A stretch of DNA of 64,000 nucleotides from Blastococcus aurantiacus (GTDB lineage Bacteria > Actinomycetota > Actinomycetes > Mycobacteriales > Geodermatophilaceae). A program made the translations under genes and the position numbers. Within the stretch, counting starts at the first letter, position 1. Each line of letters opens with the position of its first letter. This document shows, in pieces, positions 42,446-60,266 of the stretch. The notes under the pieces are model-generated. The model made no database searches. It saw only the letters and a list, made by a program, of their open reading frames with translations, and was not told where the DNA came from. The stretch covers positions 434,001-498,000 of the forward strand of contig NZ_FNBT01000001.1 of NCBI RefSeq assembly GCF_900102425.1, in the 5' to 3' direction.

Positions 42446-45400
42446 ATGGAGAGCACTGTCGATCTCGACCTCCGCGACGCCGTGGCGCCGCAGACGGCGG
42501 CGATCTCCATCGAGATCACCTCCACCCCGGTGCTCAGCTACGCCCTGGCGCACAACGGCATCCCCGTAGTCCCGCGGCTGGCCCTCACCTCCGAGGCCAC
42601 CGTCCGCGGCGCGACCGTGCGGCTGTCGGTCCGTGACGCCGAGGGCCCGATCGCCCGGCCCGTGGAGCTGCTGGCCGACATCGACGCCGGTCGCAGCACC
42701 GTGCTCACCGACGTCGGCCTGGTCATGGACCCCGCCGCGATGCTCCAGGTCGAGGAGCAGCGGCCGGGCGTCATCGACGTCGAGGTTCTGGTGGACGGCG
42801 AGGACGGTCCGGTCCTGGCCGGTGAGGCATCCCGGCCCGTGCAGGTGCTCGCCGCCAACCAGTGGCTGGCCTCTCCCCTGCCGCTGGCACTGGAGATGCT
42901 CGCCGCGCACGTCATGCCCAACCACCCCGCGGTCACCGCGCTGGTCGCCGAGGCCGTCGACCACCTCGAGCAGGCCACCGGCAGCGGCGCCCTCGTCGGG
43001 TACGCCGCGACGGCCGAGCGGGTCGACGAGGTGGTCGCCTCGATCGCCGAGACCCTGCGGGCCCGCGGCCTCCGCTACAGCGAGCCGCCGGCCACCTGGT
43101 CCGACGTCGGCCAGCAGGTGCGGACGCCGGGCGACGTCCTGACCTGGAAGGTCGGCACGCCGCTGGACACCGTGGTGCTGCTGGCCGCCGCGCTCGAGCA
43201 GGCCGGCATCCGGCCGCTGCTGTGGCTCGCGGAGGGGCACTCGTTCCTGGGCTACTGGCGCGAGGAGCGCAGCGCCGAGTCCGCCGCCACCACCGACGCC
43301 GCCGGCCTGGTCAACCTGGTCGACCTCGGGCTGATCGGTCTCGTCGAGACGACGCTGCTCACGAGCATGGGCGAGCCCGGCGCCGACCTGCACCGCCCGG
43401 CCTACGACGGCTGGCTGACCGGCGAGCTCGACCGGATCATCGGCGTCACCGACGTCCACCGCGCCCGGCGCGACGGCATCGTGCCGCTGCCGGCGCGCGC
43501 CCGCGACGAGCAGGGCGTGCTGCAGGTCGTGGAGTACCGGGCCGCGGTGCACAGCGCCCCGGCACCCCCCGAGGGGACGACGACGGCGGCACCCCGCCCC
43601 GAGGCGCCTCCGCGGGTGCAGCAGTGGAAGAACGCCCTGCTGGACCTCAGCCTGCGCAACCGCCTGATCAACTACACCGACCGCACCGGGCTGGCGCTGA
43701 CGGTGCCGGCCACCTCGCTGCCGGTGCTGGAGCGGTTCGTCCACGACGGCACACCCATCACGCTGCTGCCCGGCGACAAGCTCGCCGCCGTCCAGGCCGA
43801 GCGCGGCCTCACCGGCGCCGGCGACCTGCCCTCGCAGCAGCTGGCCGACCTGCTCGTCGAGCGCCGCGAGCTGCACGCCGACGTCACCACCGGCGGCTAC
43901 CTCCCCCGGCTGCGCAACCTGGCCTACCGGGCCAAGACCGTGCAGGAGGAGACCGGCGCCAACAACCTCTACCTGGCGCTCGGCTCGCTGGTGTGGGAGC
44001 TCGACGGCCGGCCGCTGCGCTCCCCGCTCGTGCTCATCCCGGTCACGCTCACGCCGCTGAGCCGCACCGGCTCCTACCGGCTCGCGCTGGACGAGTCGGG
44101 CAGCACCGCACCGAACTACTGCCTGCTGGAGAAGCTGCGCCAGCTGCACGGGCTCTCCATCCCGACGCTGACCGAGACCGCCGACGGCACGATGGACGTC
44201 GAGGCGGCGCTGGAGGCCATGCGGGTCGCGCTGGTCGGCCACGGGCTGCCCTACCGCGTCGAGGCGACGGCGGACCTCGCCGTCCTCCAGTTCGCCAAGT
44301 ACCGGCTGTGGAAGGACCTCGACGAGCACTGGGCCGACTTCGCCCAGAACCCGCTGGTCTCCCACCTGGTGCACGAGCCCACCGAGCCGTTCACCGACCC
44401 GGCGCTGGACACCGGCGCCTTCGCCGACCTCGACGACCTCGCCGCGCAGCTGCCGGCCCCCGCCGACGCCTCGCAGCTGCGGGCGATCGCGGAGGCCAGC
44501 GCCGGGCGCACCTTCGTGCTCGAGGGCCCTCCCGGCACGGGCAAGTCGCAGACCATCACCAACCTGCTCACCCGGGCGGTCGCCGAGGGCAAGCGGGTGC
44601 TGTTCGTGGCCGAGAAGCGGGCGGCCCTGGACGTCGTCGCGCGCCGCCTCGACGCCGTCGGCATGGGCATGTTCGCCCTCGACCTGCACGACAAGGGCAG
44701 CCGCGCCTCGATGGTGCGGGCGCAGATCCGGCTGGCGCTGGAGCACGCGGTCGCCGTCGACGAGCAGGGGCTGGCCGCCGACTCGGAGAACCTGCGCTCG
44801 GCCCGCCGGCTGCTGGCCCGCTACGCCGACCGGCTGCACACCGAGAACGCCGCCGGGCTGTCGCTGTACACCGCCCGCACCGCCGAGCTGACCGCCGGCA
44901 CCGACGTCGAGCCCCTCCCGGTGCCGCTGCCCTTCGTCGCCAACGCCGCTCCCGAGGTGCTCGCCCAGATCCGGCGGGCCCTGGCGCTGCTGCCCGAGAT
45001 CGCCGACCTGACCCGCCCCTCACTCCGCCACCCGTGGGCGTTCGTCGACTCCCCCGCCATCGACCTGCCCGCCACCCAGGCCGCGGCCACCGCCGTGGAC
45101 GAGGCGGTGCGCGCCGTCGCCGGCCACGCCGAGCTCACCCAGGTCCTGCGGCACGCGCGCACGCCGGACGACTTCGCCGCCCTCGGCCACCTGCTCGGCG
45201 GGCCGGCGGTCGGGCTCGACGTCCTCGACGAGACCTTCTCCGGCCGCTGGACGACGGCGACCGGCGCGGTCCTCGGCGAGATCGCGGCCTTCCTCGCCTT
45301 CCGGCACCCGGGCATGGACCTGGTCGCCCCCGAGGTGCTGGCGCTGCCGCTGGCCGACATCTACGTGGCCGCGCAGACCGCCGCCGCGTCGTCGTGGTGG

Positions 45401-48352
45401 GGTCGCCGGCGCCGGCTGGTCGCCGTGCGCGACCGCCTCGCCCCGCACCTGCGCGCCGAGGCCAAGGTCAGGCCCAAGGACGTCCCCGCGCTGGTGGAGA
45501 ACCTGTGGCGGGTGCAGACCGCGGTGCAGCAGATCGCCGGCCGCGTCAACGCCGTCCCGGGCCTGGCCGTGCCCGAGGGCTGGAACCCGTTCGTCGACCC
45601 GCACCTGCCCGAGCACCAGGTCGCCTGGCTGCGCCGCGCGGGGCAGGCCGTCGACGGGTCGTCGTCCTTCCACGTCCAGCTGCGCAAGCTGATCGTGGCC
45701 GGCATGCCGGTCGGTCCGGAGGCCGCCACGGCCGTCGACCGGCTGCAGCGCTCGGTGACGGCACTGGTGCGCGTCTGCGCCACGAGCGCCGACCAGCTCG
45801 CCGCCTGGACCGGGGACGACGGCTTCACGCTGCGCTGGTCGATGACCCGCCCCGAGCGCGGCACCGACGGCTCGGTGCTCATGTCGCTGCGCCGCTGGGT
45901 CAGCTTCCTCGACACCCTCGAGCCGCTGCGCTACGCGGGGCTCTTCGACGCCCGGCGGCTGCTCGTCACCGGTGCGATCGCCGCCGACGACGCCGTCCGC
46001 GCCCTGGACCGGGGCATGGCGACGGCCTCGGTGACCGAGCGCCTCGACGCCACCGGGCTGGACCTCTTCGACGAGGGGCTGCACGAGAAGGCGATCACCC
46101 GCTTCGCCGCCGCGTCCCGGGCCGTGCGGGAGCACCTGACCGCGGCCCTGCCCGCGTCGGTGCTGGCCACGCGGCCCTTCGACGCCGCGTCCGGTGCCGG
46201 CCAGGTGGGTGCGCTGCAGCGCGAGCTGGCCAAGCAGCGCCGCGGGCTGGGCGTCCGCCAGCTGCTGGCGCAGTACGGCGAGCTGATCACCTCCGTCATG
46301 CCGTGCGTGCTGGTGTCGCCGGACTCGGTGGCCCGGTTCTTCCCGGCCGCGGCCGCGCAGTTCGACCTGGTCGTCTTCGACGAGGCCTCGCAGATCCGGG
46401 TCGCCGACGCCGTGGGCGCACTGGGCCGCGCGAAGGCCGCCGTCGTCGTCGGTGACTCCAAGCAGATGCCGCCGACGTCCTTCCTCGAGCCGACCGCCTC
46501 GGTCTCCGACGACGTCGTCGAGGTGGAGACCGCGGTCGAGGACGAGGAGTCGATCCTCAGCGAGTGCGTGCAGGCGCGGGTGCCGCGCCACTGGCTGTCG
46601 TGGCACTACCGCAGCCAGGACGAGTCGCTCATCGCGTTCTCCAACGCGCAGTACTACGAGAACCGGCTGTCGTCGTTCCCGGCGCCCACGCACGGCCGGG
46701 CGTCGTCGGAGCCCGACGGCCGGGGCGTCTCGCTGGTGCGGGTGCCCGGCACCTTCCACCGCTCCGGCGCCGGCCGCCTGCTGCGGACGAACCCGATCGA
46801 GGCCAAGGCGATCGTCGCCGAGATCCGCCGCCGGTTCGACGCGGTACCCAAGTGGGACGGCGTCGACGCGGTGCCCTCGATCGGCGTGGTCACCTTCAAC
46901 GCCCAGCAGCGCTCCTACATCGAGTCGCTGCTGCGCGACGCCGACGACGAGCGGCTGGCCGCGGCCCTGGACCGCACCGACGGCGAGGGCCTGTTCGTCA
47001 AGAACCTGGAGAACGTGCAGGGCGACGAGCGCGACGTCGTCTTCTTCTCCACCGGCTTCTCCCCCACCGCCGACGGCACGCTGCCGCTGAACTTCGGCCC
47101 GCTCAACCGCAGCGGTGGCGAGCGCCGGCTCAACGTCGCGATCACCCGCGCCCGGCGGCAGGTCGTCGTCTTCTCCTCCTTCGACCCGGAGCAGCTGCGG
47201 GCCGAGGAGACCAGCTCGGTGGGCATCAAGCACCTGCGCGCCTACCTCGACATGGCCGAGCGCGGCACCGACGTGCTGCCCCGTTCGCCGCGGTCGGTCG
47301 CCGTCGTGGACCGGCACCGCGAGGAGATCGCCGCCGCCCTGCGCGAGCGGGGTCTGGTCGTGCGCACCGACGTCGGTCTCTCGGAGTTCCGTGTCGACCT
47401 GTCGATCAGCCGACCTGTCGACCCGGAGACCCCGGTCGCGGCCGTGCTGCTGGACAGCCCGGCATGGGCGCGGCGCGGCACGGTCGGCGACCGCGACGGA
47501 CTGCCGGTCGAGGTGCTCGGCGGGCTGCTGCGCTGGCCGGTGGTCTCCCGCGTCTGGCTGCCCTCGTGGCTGCTGTCGCCGTCCACCGTCGTCGACCGCC
47601 TGGTCGAAGCGGTCGACTCCGCTCCGGCCACCCCGGTGCTGCCGGCACCGATCCCCCTGCCGACGGCGGCGGTCGAGTCGTTCAAGGGCGTGGCGGCGCT
47701 GCGCTCGTCGGTGACCGCGTCGGTGGCGGTGCCCGCGACGTCCGCGCCGACGCGTCCGGCCGCTTCCAAGCCGGCGGCGGCCAAGCCCGCGCGGCCGGTG
47801 GCGATGGAGGGCGAGACGCCGTTCGTGCCGTGGATCCCGAAGACCGCCGGCGAGAAGTCGGTGCTCGACGAGCTGCCGGCGTCCAAGGCCGCGCGCGTGG
47901 TGCGCCGCGTGCTCGCCGCCGGGATCAAGGCCGAGGGCCCCATCCACGTCGACCGGCTGGCCAAGCTCACCGTCGGGGCCTTCGGGCTCAACCGGGCGAC
48001 CGAGTCGCGGAAGTCGACGCTGCTGTCGTTGCTGCCCCCGTCGGCCGTGCAGGGCGAGCACCTGTGGCCCGAGGGCGTGACGCCCGAGAGCTACGAGGGT
48101 TTCCGCCGTCAGGTCTCCAGCACCGACCGGCCGATCGACCACGTCGCGCCCGAGGAGATCGCCAACGCGATGGCGGCCCTGTGCCGCGCCTCGGCGGGGA
48201 TGGGCCGCGGTGAGCTGCTCACGCAGACAGCGGCGGTGTTCGGGCACAAGCGCCGCTCCGCCGCGGTGACCGGCGTCCTGGAGCAGGCGCTGACCGCCGC
48301 GATCGAGCGCGGCAAGCTCACCGAGCAGCCGAACGGCCTGCTCACCATCTGA
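42446..48352 (+). CDS. Hhe-type protein: transglutaminase-like, DUF4011, SF1 helicase, Vsr-like, DUF3320
   Basis: A 1968-residue protein. Residues about 1-300 end in a transglutaminase-like segment with GTPLDTVVLLAAALEQAGIR (237 on) and GHSF (His265); the catalytic Cys position is Pro239. DUF4011 begins near 390 (VQQWKNALLDLSLRNRLINY). The SF1/DNA2-NAM7 helicase has Walker A GPPGTGKS (694-701), Walker B VVFDEAS (Asp1312, Glu1313) and NVAITRARRQVVVF (1563 on). A Vsr-like nuclease segment (about 1618-1725) keeps Asp1651 in FRVDL, but the usual Glu of IECDG is Leu1668 (VLLDSP). DUF3320 ends the protein. This order is that of Hhe antiviral proteins. ATP-dependent DNA translocation is likely; nuclease activity is doubtful. 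No partner genes overlap. Confidence 0.9.
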   Translation: MESTVDLDLRDAVAPQTAAISIEITSTPVLSYALAHNGIPVVPRLALTSEATVRGATVRLSVRDAEGPIARPVELLADIDAGRSTVLTDVGLVMDPAAMLQVEEQRPGVIDVEVLVDGEDGPVLAGEASRPVQVLAANQWLASPLPLALEMLAAHVMPNHPAVTALVAEAVDHLEQATGSGALVGYAATAERVDEVVASIAETLRARGLRYSEPPATWSDVGQQVRTPGDVLTWKVGTPLDTVVLLAAALEQAGIRPLLWLAEGHSFLGYWREERSAESAATTDAAGLVNLVDLGLIGLVETTLLTSMGEPGADLHRPAYDGWLTGELDRIIGVTDVHRARRDGIVPLPARARDEQGVLQVVEYRAAVHSAPAPPEGTTTAAPRPEAPPRVQQWKNALLDLSLRNRLINYTDRTGLALTVPATSLPVLERFVHDGTPITLLPGDKLAAVQAERGLTGAGDLPSQQLADLLVERRELHADVTTGGYLPRLRNLAYRAKTVQEETGANNLYLALGSLVWELDGRPLRSPLVLIPVTLTPLSRTGSYRLALDESGSTAPNYCLLEKLRQLHGLSIPTLTETADGTMDVEAALEAMRVALVGHGLPYRVEATADLAVLQFAKYRLWKDLDEHWADFAQNPLVSHLVHEPTEPFTDPALDTGAFADLDDLAAQLPAPADASQLRAIAEASAGRTFVLEGPPGTGKSQTITNLLTRAVAEGKRVLFVAEKRAALDVVARRLDAVGMGMFALDLHDKGSRASMVRAQIRLALEHAVAVDEQGLAADSENLRSARRLLARYADRLHTENAAGLSLYTARTAELTAGTDVEPLPVPLPFVANAAPEVLAQIRRALALLPEIADLTRPSLRHPWAFVDSPAIDLPATQAAATAVDEAVRAVAGHAELTQVLRHARTPDDFAALGHLLGGPAVGLDVLDETFSGRWTTATGAVLGEIAAFLAFRHPGMDLVAPEVLALPLADIYVAAQTAAASSWWGRRRRLVAVRDRLAPHLRAEAKVRPKDVPALVENLWRVQTAVQQIAGRVNAVPGLAVPEGWNPFVDPHLPEHQVAWLRRAGQAVDGSSSFHVQLRKLIVAGMPVGPEAATAVDRLQRSVTALVRVCATSADQLAAWTGDDGFTLRWSMTRPERGTDGSVLMSLRRWVSFLDTLEPLRYAGLFDARRLLVTGAIAADDAVRALDRGMATASVTERLDATGLDLFDEGLHEKAITRFAAASRAVREHLTAALPASVLATRPFDAASGAGQVGALQRELAKQRRGLGVRQLLAQYGELITSVMPCVLVSPDSVARFFPAAAAQFDLVVFDEASQIRVADAVGALGRAKAAVVVGDSKQMPPTSFLEPTASVSDDVVEVETAVEDEESILSECVQARVPRHWLSWHYRSQDESLIAFSNAQYYENRLSSFPAPTHGRASSEPDGRGVSLVRVPGTFHRSGAGRLLRTNPIEAKAIVAEIRRRFDAVPKWDGVDAVPSIGVVTFNAQQRSYIESLLRDADDERLAAALDRTDGEGLFVKNLENVQGDERDVVFFSTGFSPTADGTLPLNFGPLNRSGGERRLNVAITRARRQVVVFSSFDPEQLRAEETSSVGIKHLRAYLDMAERGTDVLPRSPRSVAVVDRHREEIAAALRERGLVVRTDVGLSEFRVDLSISRPVDPETPVAAVLLDSPAWARRGTVGDRDGLPVEVLGGLLRWPVVSRVWLPSWLLSPSTVVDRLVEAVDSAPATPVLPAPIPLPTAAVESFKGVAALRSSVTASVAVPATSAPTRPAASKPAAAKPARPVAMEGETPFVPWIPKTAGEKSVLDELPASKAARVVRRVLAAGIKAEGPIHVDRLAKLTVGAFGLNRATESRKSTLLSLLPPSAVQGEHLWPEGVTPESYEGFRRQVSSTDRPIDHVAPEEIANAMAALCRASAGMGRGELLTQTAAVFGHKRRSAAVTGVLEQALTAAIERGKLTEQPNGLLTI

Positions 48353-48358
48353 CCCCGT

Positions 48359-48430
48359 CCCCGCTTTTCCGCGGTAAAGCGGTCTGCTTTTCCGCGGTTA
48401 AGCAGACCGCTTTTCCGCGGAAAGGCGGGG
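48359..48430. repeat. 72-bp palindrome made of three tandem 22-bp palindromic units
   Basis: Units at 48361-48382, 48384-48405 and 48407-48428 are each palindromic around TTTCCGCGG and repeat every 23 bases. Units 1 and 3 start CCGCTTTTCCGCGG; unit 2 starts CTGCTTTTCCGCGG. The whole block folds on itself: 48376-48389 and 48400-48413 are perfect 14-base complements, and the pairing continues outward to CCCCGC/GCGGGG at 48359-48364 and 48425-48430. By hand count 32 of 36 base positions per arm are complementary. It begins 7 bases after the helicase stop. Confidence 0.75.
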
Positions 48431-48440
48431 CGTGGAGTGC

Positions 48441-48517
48441 TCCCGGGAAATAGGGCTGCGCGTTTCCGGATGCGTGTGTTGACTGCACCGGCCTTCGGGC
48501 ACACACGACCGCATCCG
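48441..48517 (+). other. Structured RNA-like leader upstream of rtcB
   Basis: CGGATGCG (48467-48474) pairs with CGCATCCG (48510-48517), GTGTGT (48474-48479) with ACACAC (48501-48506), and the tip is GCC-TTCG-GGC (48491-48500), a C(UUCG)G tetraloop. Upstream, GGAAA (48446-48450) can instead pair with TTTCC (48463-48467), competing for the base of the long stem. An AAAGGA ribosome site follows at 48526-48531. No clear promoter was seen. Could be a regulatory leader or a small RNA. Confidence 0.5.
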
Positions 48518-48534
48518 AGCGAATCGAAAGGACG

Positions 48535-49698
48535 ATGGAGAAGATCAACGCACGCCTGCTCAACTGGGCGTCGATCCTGGAGGACACCACCCGCGAGCAG
48601 GCGGAGCGCACGGCGCAGATGCCGTTCATCTACCCGCACCTGGCCCTGATGCCCGACGCCCACCTGGGCATGGGCGCGACCGTCGGCTCGGTCATCCCGA
48701 CCGACGGCGCGATCATCCCGGCCGCGGTCGGCGTGGACATCGGTTGCGGCATGATCGCCGTTCGCACCCAGTTCACCGCCGACGACGTCGCCGGGCGCCC
48801 GCTGGACGTGCTGCACCAGCAGATCTCGCGCTCGATCCCGCTGTCGGCGGGTGGCCGGAACCAGAAGATCCGGGCGTCCGCCGAGCCGCGGATCGCCGAG
48901 CTGCGCGAGACGCCGGGTGCCGGGCAGGCCGACGCCGAGTCGCGGCAGTGGCCGCAGCAGCTGGGGTCCCTCGGCTCCGGCAACCACTTCATCGAGCTCT
49001 CGCTCGACGAGGAGGACCGGGTGTGGCTGTTCTTGCACTCCGGGTCCCGGGGTGTGGGCAACCGGCTCGCGCAGAAGCACATCAAGGTGGCGCGGGAGCA
49101 GTGCGAGCGCCGGCACATCCAGCTGCCCGACCGGGATCTCGCGTACCTGGTCGAGGGCGAGCCGGAGTTCGACCGGTACGTCGAGGCGCTCCGCTGGGCG
49201 CAGCGGTTCGCCTACCTCAACCGCGAGGAGATGATGGACCGCTGCGTCGACCAGCTGGGCCGGTTCCTGAACGCCGGGGTCGAGCGCACCGAGACGGTGA
49301 ACTGCCACCACAACTACACCGAGCGCGAGACCCACTTCGGGCGTGAGGTGTGGCTGTCCCGGAAGGGTGCGATCTCGGCACGGGAGGGCCAGCTCGGCCT
49401 CATCCCGGGCTCGATGGGTGCGGCGTCCTACGTCGTCGCCGGCTTGGGGAACGTGCCCTCGCTGATGTCCTCGCCGCACGGCGCCGGCCGGAACTTCTCG
49501 CGGACGGCGGCGCGCAAGCGGTTCACGCGGCAGGACCTCGACGCGCGGATGGCGGGCATCGCGTGGGGGCATTCGGACGCGTTCCTCGACGAGCACCCCG
49601 ACGCGTACAAGCCGATCGACCAGGTGATGGCCGACGCCGCCGATCTGGTCGAGGTGCGGCACACGCTGCGTCAGATCGTCAACGTCAAGGGCGACTGA
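48535..49698 (+). CDS. rtcB: RNA-splicing ligase RtcB
   Basis: A 387-residue RtcB. It joins RNA 2',3'-cyclic phosphate or 3'-phosphate ends to 5'-OH ends using GTP and Mn2+. Metal and active-site residues are visible: MPDAHLGMGATVGSVIP, GVDIGCGM (Asp68, Cys71), GSLGSGNHF (His151), FLHSGSRG (His168), NCHHNYTE, LIPGSMG and SSPHGAGRNFSR with His315, the expected guanylylated His. The length is that of the shorter bacterial RtcB group. It has a structured leader and its own terminator, and no rtcA, archease or Rsr gene is near. Likely used for RNA repair. Confidence 0.95.
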   Translation: MEKINARLLNWASILEDTTREQAERTAQMPFIYPHLALMPDAHLGMGATVGSVIPTDGAIIPAAVGVDIGCGMIAVRTQFTADDVAGRPLDVLHQQISRSIPLSAGGRNQKIRASAEPRIAELRETPGAGQADAESRQWPQQLGSLGSGNHFIELSLDEEDRVWLFLHSGSRGVGNRLAQKHIKVAREQCERRHIQLPDRDLAYLVEGEPEFDRYVEALRWAQRFAYLNREEMMDRCVDQLGRFLNAGVERTETVNCHHNYTERETHFGREVWLSRKGAISAREGQLGLIPGSMGAASYVVAGLGNVPSLMSSPHGAGRNFSRTAARKRFTRQDLDARMAGIAWGHSDAFLDEHPDAYKPIDQVMADAADLVEVRHTLRQIVNVKGD

Positions 49699-60191: not shown

Positions 60192-60216
60192 CCTCCGCCG
60201 CACTGTTGGTCCTCGC

Positions 60217-60258
60217 ACAGTCGGCCTCTGCCCACAGGTGTGGGCAGAGGCCGACTGT
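60217..60258. terminator. Perfect 20-bp stem bidirectional terminator
   Basis: ACAGTCGGCCTCTGCCCACA (60217-60236), two G residues, then its exact complement (60239-60258). It lies between convergent genes and has no loop beyond a few bases. Such a perfect palindrome could also be a dispersed repeat. Confidence 0.75.
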
Positions 60259-60266
60259 CCGCGGAC

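Follow-up and report, generated by a model that had tools for sequence, protein, structure and literature searches.

The locus studied here raises the question of why an elaborate palindromic block stands between a helicase-like gene and the RNA ligase gene rtcB in Blastococcus aurantiacus, and whether this block serves its neighbors or belongs to something wider. The block lies in the window, that is, the whole stretch of 64,000 nucleotides that was analyzed. A repeat search and folding delimited an array at positions 48359 to 48430 (no strand assigned), which is a 72-nt imperfect inverted repeat predicted to form a single long hairpin. As an earlier inspection of the letters without database searches (the sequence-only reading) had described, it contains three 22-nt palindromic units with an exact period of 23 (48361 to 48428; start-to-start spacings of 23 and 23): unit 1 (CCGCTTTTCCGCGGTAAAGCGG, 48361 to 48382), unit 2 (CTGCTTTTCCGCGGTTAAGCAG, 48384 to 48405), which is placed at the apex of the predicted long hairpin, and unit 3 (CCGCTTTTCCGCGGAAAGGCGG, 48407 to 48428). 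Units 2 and 3 are 86% and 91% identical to unit 1, respectively, and the entire block is, again as described, one inverted repeat, with 36-nt arms that are 89% complementary. The RNA fold of positions 48357 to 48432 was predicted at -61.8 kcal/mol (z -12.1), and 0 of 200 shuffles were equally stable. When up to 3 mismatches were allowed, the core pattern was found 6 times in the 64-kb window, every match lying inside the block, whereas shuffled windows (n = 100) contained on average 0.51 matches and 0 of 100 reached 6. The unit core presumably resembles the Noc site and parS. The array had no match in plasmid and phage collections.

The flanking genes were assigned by profile matches. The upstream gene (42446 to 48352, plus strand), whose 3' end carries the array, is a DUF4011/AAA helicase-like gene with a stop codon ending at 48352, 6 nt before the array. 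Its best NCBIfam equivalog is the anti-phage protein ProA (1665.7 bits versus a cut-off of 1500); it remains below the Hhe model's own cut-off (547 versus 2000), and PADLOC returned PDC-S37 as the best model and Hhe as the second. The sequence-only reading had called this gene a helicase and "Hhe-type." Its identification of the downstream neighbor as RtcB holds. This gene (48535 to 49698, plus strand) is not part of the element and starts 104 nt after the array end at 48430; both distances to the flanking genes had been given correctly to within one base. The rtcB leader extends from the array to the start codon (48431 to 48534, plus strand), and stretches that recur in it were read by eye: AATAGGGCTGCGC and TTGACTGCACCGGC, located in 48440 to 48534, are found whole or partly upstream of rtcB in other Geodermatophilaceae and are possibly a conserved promoter or control site.

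We considered whether the array serves rtcB alone, as a cis-regulatory or a processed RNA, which its end 104 nt upstream of the gene might suggest. The rtcB loci closest to that of the window (95% identical) are those of Blastococcus sp. TML/M2B and Blastococcus sp. DSM 44205. Among 80 rtcB loci scanned, two have units in the corresponding gap: those of L088, two in number, are intact, and the long hairpin is still predicted, whereas both units of L073 are decayed and the predicted hairpin is lost. At the remaining 78 of the 80 loci, the scan did not find the array in the rtcB gap, and the other weak unit matches, of which L090 has one and L145 two, fall outside this gap. The tie to rtcB is thus shared by just two close relatives, one of them with a decayed array. 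By eye, the leader looks similar whether or not a relative has the array, so that the array is not required for it. A search of positions 48000 to 48800 against Rfam gave 8 weak matches, none of which reached its gathering score; the matches confined to the array were microRNA models below this score, which were rejected as hairpin look-alikes. Since, in addition, at least 38 further arrays are located elsewhere in the genome, this reading was already disfavored, and we regard it as extremely improbable.

These further arrays became apparent in the assembly of the window's own genome (G000, 4.16 Mb; related genomes, loci, and contigs are designated below by G, L, and C numbers). With up to 3 mismatches, the core pattern had 104 forward and 102 reverse matches in G000, whereas the reversed pattern had 12 and 10. 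At least 39 arrays were identified, from which 85 units were read: 30 arrays have two units, 8 have three, and 1 has one. Array counts given here are lower bounds, and those of G018, G007, G004, and G009 apply among the matches listed. Unit spacing in the 39 listed arrays is 23 in 44 cases and 40 in 2 cases; the usual element consists of two palindromic units of 22 nt separated by one base, and one, three, and four units also occur. Most of the 85 units match 16 to 18 of the 18 core bases, and the CCGCGG core is 99 to 100% conserved in these units and in 77 units from the related genome G001. Position counts over 80 units gave mainly C[C/T]GC and GC[A/G]G at the unit ends, and a GTAG or CGTC tag at one unit end was not found in these units. 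Neighboring arrays less than 2 kb apart formed 5 pairs versus 0.75 expected (P 0.0007, ten contigs used), and there was no significant signal for an extension of the stem into the array flanks. Judged from sequence comparison, the block belongs to a dispersed gene-end palindrome family in part of the genus Blastococcus, and it is a REP-like family member rather than a special rtcB control site. A dispersed palindromic element had been one of the options offered by the sequence-only reading, which proposed to search for the core unit and held that many copies across the genome would make the block a generic repeat; such copies were indeed found.

Two observations on individual contigs may be added. 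The two arrays with a spacing of 40, on contigs C9 and C18, are located at rRNA operon ends: 5S rRNA lies beyond the C9 array (Rfam), and the C18 copy has 98% the same sequence up to its contig end. For this reason, the idea that these contig-end arrays are transposon ends was rejected. The array density in G000 is uneven: C12 (447 kb) has 0 arrays versus 4.5 expected, and C18 (430 kb) has 12 versus 4.3 expected.

To place the arrays relative to genes, we used the calls of a simple codon-based gene caller. None of the 39 listed G000 arrays is inside a called gene; 15 are between convergent genes, 21 between co-directional genes, and 1 between divergent genes, whereas 2 (the rRNA ends) are unclassified. 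The distance to a stop codon was at most 15 nt in 33 of the 39 arrays and at most 5 nt in 24, with a median of 3 nt to the nearest stop for the 38 arrays that adjoin a gene 3' end; the gene starts adjoining 22 of the listed arrays are at a median distance of 63.5 nt. A random 45-nt element in the 35 array-free gaps of the window would fall within 15 nt of a stop in 10% (placement weighted) or 32% (gap weighted) of cases, and comparison of 33/39 with the larger of these figures gives P about 2e-11. Often, the array fills the gap between two convergent genes. In G001, 1 of 42 arrays is in a called gene, and the others comprise 11 convergent, 16 co-directional, and 14 unclassified cases, many of the latter at contig ends; a single unit is visible in 17 of the 42, in some because an insertion sequence (IS) splits the array.

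This placement, together with the strong hairpins, might mean that the arrays are ordinary factor-independent terminators, each formed at its own site, and that they resemble one another by convergence. The window indeed contains further strong gene-end hairpins, such as that at 60192 to 60266 (z -10.6 and -8.4). Such an origin is strongly disfavored by the one common sequence found in the 85 units of the 39 listed arrays, and spacing and unit ends are species specific across loci. Furthermore, of the features of a U-tract terminator, the 39 listed arrays have the GC-rich hairpin and lack the T-run: none of the 39 has T4 within 10 nt after the array on either strand, and the arrays are accordingly not predicted to be classical U-tract terminators. 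The sole match of a terminator scanner took the next unit as its tail. We consider a separate origin of each array highly improbable.

Folding predicted that all of the 28 listed G000 arrays with two units at period 23 fold into one long hairpin instead of a small hairpin per unit. Covariation in G000 agrees with this prediction, since only 11 of 2,000 re-paired controls reached the observed pairing across units, compared with 753 of 2,000 re-paired halves for the pairing within units. Cross-unit covariation was also seen in the 15 arrays of G018 and G007 (63 of 3,000 controls reached the observed value), whereas it was absent in the 15 arrays of G001 (2,655 of 3,000) and the 8 of G004 (2,129 of 3,000). 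Pairing within units was no better than that of re-paired halves in G001 (2,514 of 3,000), in G018 and G007 (709 of 3,000), and in G004 (246 of 3,000). The long stem is therefore the better supported of the predicted structures, with evidence that is mixed across species. As for the processed RNA hairpin that the sequence-only reading had put forward, it is the structured-hairpin part that would be compatible with the predicted fold.

The same data bear on its other proposal, an array of dimer-binding sites. Because pairing covaries between and not within units in G000, independent dimer-binding sites are unlikely; likewise, the number of units differs in 7 of the 16 orthologous arrays compared, and the usual spacing in G018 and G007 is 24 rather than 23. 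More generally, a protein that recognizes a specific DNA sequence, for example, a chromosome-organizing factor, could bind the arrays as two or three adjacent dimers, and both the almost complete conservation of the CCGCGG core in G000 and G001 and the near-regular spacing of 23 or 24 would suit such a protein. What makes this very unlikely in our view is that units keep no palindromy beyond composition in any of the genome sets just mentioned, that orthologous arrays vary in their number of units, that arrays are found at gene 3' ends, and that most members of the genus have few or no matches.

The last point emerged from a scan of 22 other genomes of the genus, with up to 2 mismatches, in which the reversed control gave 0 to 3 forward matches. 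Forward matches numbered 75 in G001, 37 in G004, 34 in G018, 13 in G007, 9 in G016, 5 in G009, and 0 to 3 in the rest. In a two-locus tree, G000 and G001 are sisters (support 0.996) and G018 and G007 form a distant pair (1.0); the tree neighbors of G000 and G001, namely, G010, G022, and G019, have 2, 1, and 3 forward matches, the placing of G019 versus G004 being weak (0.48). The distribution of the family on this tree is thus patchy. Among the matches listed, a spacing of 24 prevailed in G018 (14 of 15 cases) and G007 (4 of 6), and all 10 cases in G004 had 23. Groups whose best unit matched fewer than 16 of 18 bases were left out of the relatives' arrays, so that locus L301 of G009 has no row; locus L060 contained no array and contributed no row either.

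Although the family is patchy, many of its positions are shared. At least one flank of 29 of the 39 listed G000 arrays is found beside a G001 array, and both flanks in 18 (within 60 nt, 38 G001 loci); the remaining 10 had no counterpart among these 38 loci. Among the matches listed, both flanks match G000 array sites for 8 of 13 arrays of G018, 5 of 7 of G007, and 5 of 10 of G004. The flanks of the arrays compared between G000 and G001 mostly align at about 84 to 95%, mostly to within about 20 nt of the array. The array sequences themselves behave differently. The likeness of outer units in orthologs versus non-orthologs was 0.867 versus 0.874 for G001 (14 pairs) and 0.756 versus 0.767 for G018 (7 pairs), with orthologs slightly ahead for G007 (0.801 versus 0.782, 4 pairs) and G004 (0.905 versus 0.885, 5 pairs); within genomes, unit likeness was 0.80 to 0.91. 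In a small sample of nine equal-length G000-G001 array pairs, orthologs agreed at ten variable positions in 130 of 180 comparisons and non-orthologs in 1,031 of 1,440, and at positions 2 and 21, orthologs agreed in 17 of 36 versus 45%. Hardly any locus-specific sequence memory is thus visible in these alignments, while many positions are shared between species. As the site is shared and its sequence hardly remembered, arrays appear to be homogenized or replaced within each genome.

Two G000-array sites were followed through the genus. The convergent gap at L053 could be read in 18 of 22 genomes, the other 4 not permitting a judgment; it measures 2 to 30 nt in 8 and 50 to 110 nt in 10. Among the long gaps, that of G001 holds an array, and 6 of the 9 others hold unrelated palindromes with stems of 13 to 24 bp; in the long gaps of G005, G006, and G007, the palindrome score gave 9-bp stems. 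The carriers G018 (6-nt gap) and G007 lack the array at L053. At L050, unrelated stems of 20 to 28 bp with 0 to 3 mismatches occur in G014, G009, G022, G003, G012, and G021, and the carrier G004 has a 32-nt gap in which the array is absent. Of 21 genomes at this site, 5 were without flank or adjacency, and 5 gaps of 451 to 537 nt were left unscored for palindromes; G018 had no usable match. The occurrence of other long palindromes, or of almost nothing, at these two sites suggests that the slot itself favors a hairpin.

A further property was revealed by contig ends. In G001, contigs often end at arrays (L154, L156, L160, L167 to L169, L172, L174, L176, L178, L182, L185, and L224), and at ten of these ends, the sequence beyond the unit is one IS30-type element. 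Five left and five right ends of this element were found in G001 (98 to 100% identity), and 10 of 10 abut an array unit; these joins are known from contig ends, not from continuous sequence. Initially, the ends had been regarded as two elements, "IS-A" and "IS-B," which was rejected because in G008 both delimit a single element; there, they are 80% and 72% identical and lie 1.26 kb apart. The protein of the G008 element matches the IS30 model with 290.7 bits (cut-off, 80). Comparison of the insertion sites with G000 arrays matched both flanks at L042, L051, and L058 and one flank at L052 and L034. By eye, the G001 insertions show 3-bp duplications (gtc, gac, and gcc) centered on the inter-unit spacer. 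G008 has family matches at control level, and 3 of its 4 IS30 copies (L220, L221, and L223) are located, by eye, inside another palindrome, GTGCGC...GCAGTTC, again with 3-bp duplications by eye; this palindrome exceeds its control in G008 (20 and 17 versus 2 and 4). G001 also contains a single case of an ISL3-like end inside a unit (a fragment, 19.9 bits versus a Pfam cut-off of 23) and a single case of an IS110-like end beside an array (a weak fragment, E 0.12), both likewise known from contig ends. By eye, the IS30-type ends do not resemble the array unit, for which reason the arrays are not taken to be short derivatives of IS30. A Y1/RAYT transposase (PF01797) was found in none of 14 genomes of the genus, including G000, G001, G004, and G007 and with G018 outside the set, whereas the same search was positive in Escherichia coli and 4 other control genomes.

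Repeats of the general REP kind are described in PMC3116915, PMC3733652, PMC2817692, PMC8049555, and PMC1525189. REPINs are inverted REP doublets that form a hairpin, with doublet spacings of 71 and 110 bp and 560 doublets (PMC3116915). The arrays resemble them in that the doublet is usual, copies are many and outside genes, and one long hairpin is predicted with changes on both sides; they differ in their length of about 45 bp and number of at least 39, in the absence of a detected Y1/RAYT, and in near self-palindromic units without a tagged end. GTAG- and CGTC-tagged REPs are mainly located between genes that are unidirectional or convergent, and those with the CGTC tag are reported to have no dedicated transposase (PMC3733652). 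The arrays are likewise short palindromic repeats between genes, with no Y1/RAYT transposase detected, but carry neither tag. REPs targeted by IS are reported for the IS3, IS110, IS4, IS256, and IS5 families, whereas IS30 is cited in the accessible part of that paper solely for transposase-DNA binding, and its table has IS1655 at 2/13 and 2/6 (PMC1525189). The arrays, too, are palindromic gene-end repeats used by insertion sequences, but the clear case here is of the IS30 type and in an actinobacterium. Hot spots of IS30 are nearly palindromic, and E. coli IS30 makes 2-bp duplications (PMC9333248); here, the target is nearly palindromic as well but is a repeat family, and the duplications are 3 bp. 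Bacterial gene-end stem-loops are stable and concentrated behind stop codons and in convergent gaps (PMC1590033), positions that the arrays share, although the latter belong to one homogenized family. The array family is thus set apart from REP families by its lack of a tag and of a detected RAYT, its near-symmetric units, and its use as an IS30-type target. Among the open-licence papers listed for Blastococcus and Geodermatophilaceae, none was on such repeats in this group; BOX-PCR has been applied to Blastococcus strains, and the accessible part of that study describes no repeat (PMC2625358).

The reading that we favor, and hold to be reasonably probable, is that the arrays are a RAYT-less, REPIN/BIME-like family of gene-end hairpins that end or stabilize transcripts, have spread and been homogenized within genomes, and serve as an IS landing pad. 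Their position and predicted structure suggest that they probably end or stabilize transcripts in both directions. An array would act on the flanking gene or genes, two-way where genes converge, and at the window locus it would keep transcripts of proA apart from the rtcB leader. Copies would replace each other through conversion, template switching, or a mobilizing enzyme. In G001, as seen at contig ends, the IS30-type element lies at the inter-unit center of arrays. The near-invariant CCGCGG core exceeds the needs of a bare hairpin and argues against that part of the reading, but recent copying would also explain it.

A rather unlikely alternative is that the arrays are selfish REP-like sequences without host function, which are behind stops as the least harmful place and are kept by an enzyme or recombination. 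In its favor are the patchy occurrence on the genus tree, as seen for the carriers G000 and G001 and their neighbors (1 to 3 forward matches), the replacement of sequence within genomes, and the rarity of single units (1 of 39 listed arrays in G000). This sits less well with the positions that distant carriers have in common, with the lack of a significant excess of flanking target-site duplications, such as a MITE of a DDE transposase would leave, around the 39 listed arrays (k = 2 to 5, P 0.18 or more), and with the other long palindromes, or almost nothing, that other species hold at L053 and L050. A more speculative possibility, which we consider distinctly unlikely, is a self-targeting palindrome without a RAYT-type transposase, in which new copies land on or overwrite resident units, so that arrays stay fixed while number, spacing, and sequence are replaced in each species. 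Such self-targeting would fit because positions are shared, memory is lost, other palindromes occupy two of the slots, and IS insertions occur; if true, the gene-end gap would be a slot for successive unrelated palindrome families and a safe harbor for IS30-type elements.

Under the favored reading of a gene-end hairpin family, the arrays represent a REPIN-like repeat in an actinobacterial genus without a detected Y1/RAYT transposase. They separate conservation of place from conservation of sequence, with many arrays keeping their gene ends across species and the contents replaced, and make two questions testable, namely, how such a family persists without the usual transposase and whether its role as a gene-end hairpin is what retains it. 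The arrays further point to places in which a gene-dense genome can harbor a transposon without damage, and they explain why the G001 assembly breaks at such sites.

Two minor observations concern further elements at gene ends. A second IS30-like element has a 75% identical end in G001 and was seen at L225, L226, and L227 (G001) and L228 (G004). The 14-nt stretch CTGGGATCAGGTSA borders it in three G001 ends, is present twice in L228, in opposite directions and 1.26 kb apart, and is also found in a convergent gap of G010 (L241); it may be the target palindrome of this element or part of its own end. Finally, the palindrome at 60192 to 60266 of the window (CAGTCGGCCTCTGCCCACAggTGTGGGCAGAGGCCGACTG) is very strong and fills a convergent gap; it may represent a second gene-end family, and a near copy of it adjoins an array in G001 (L160:288-305).
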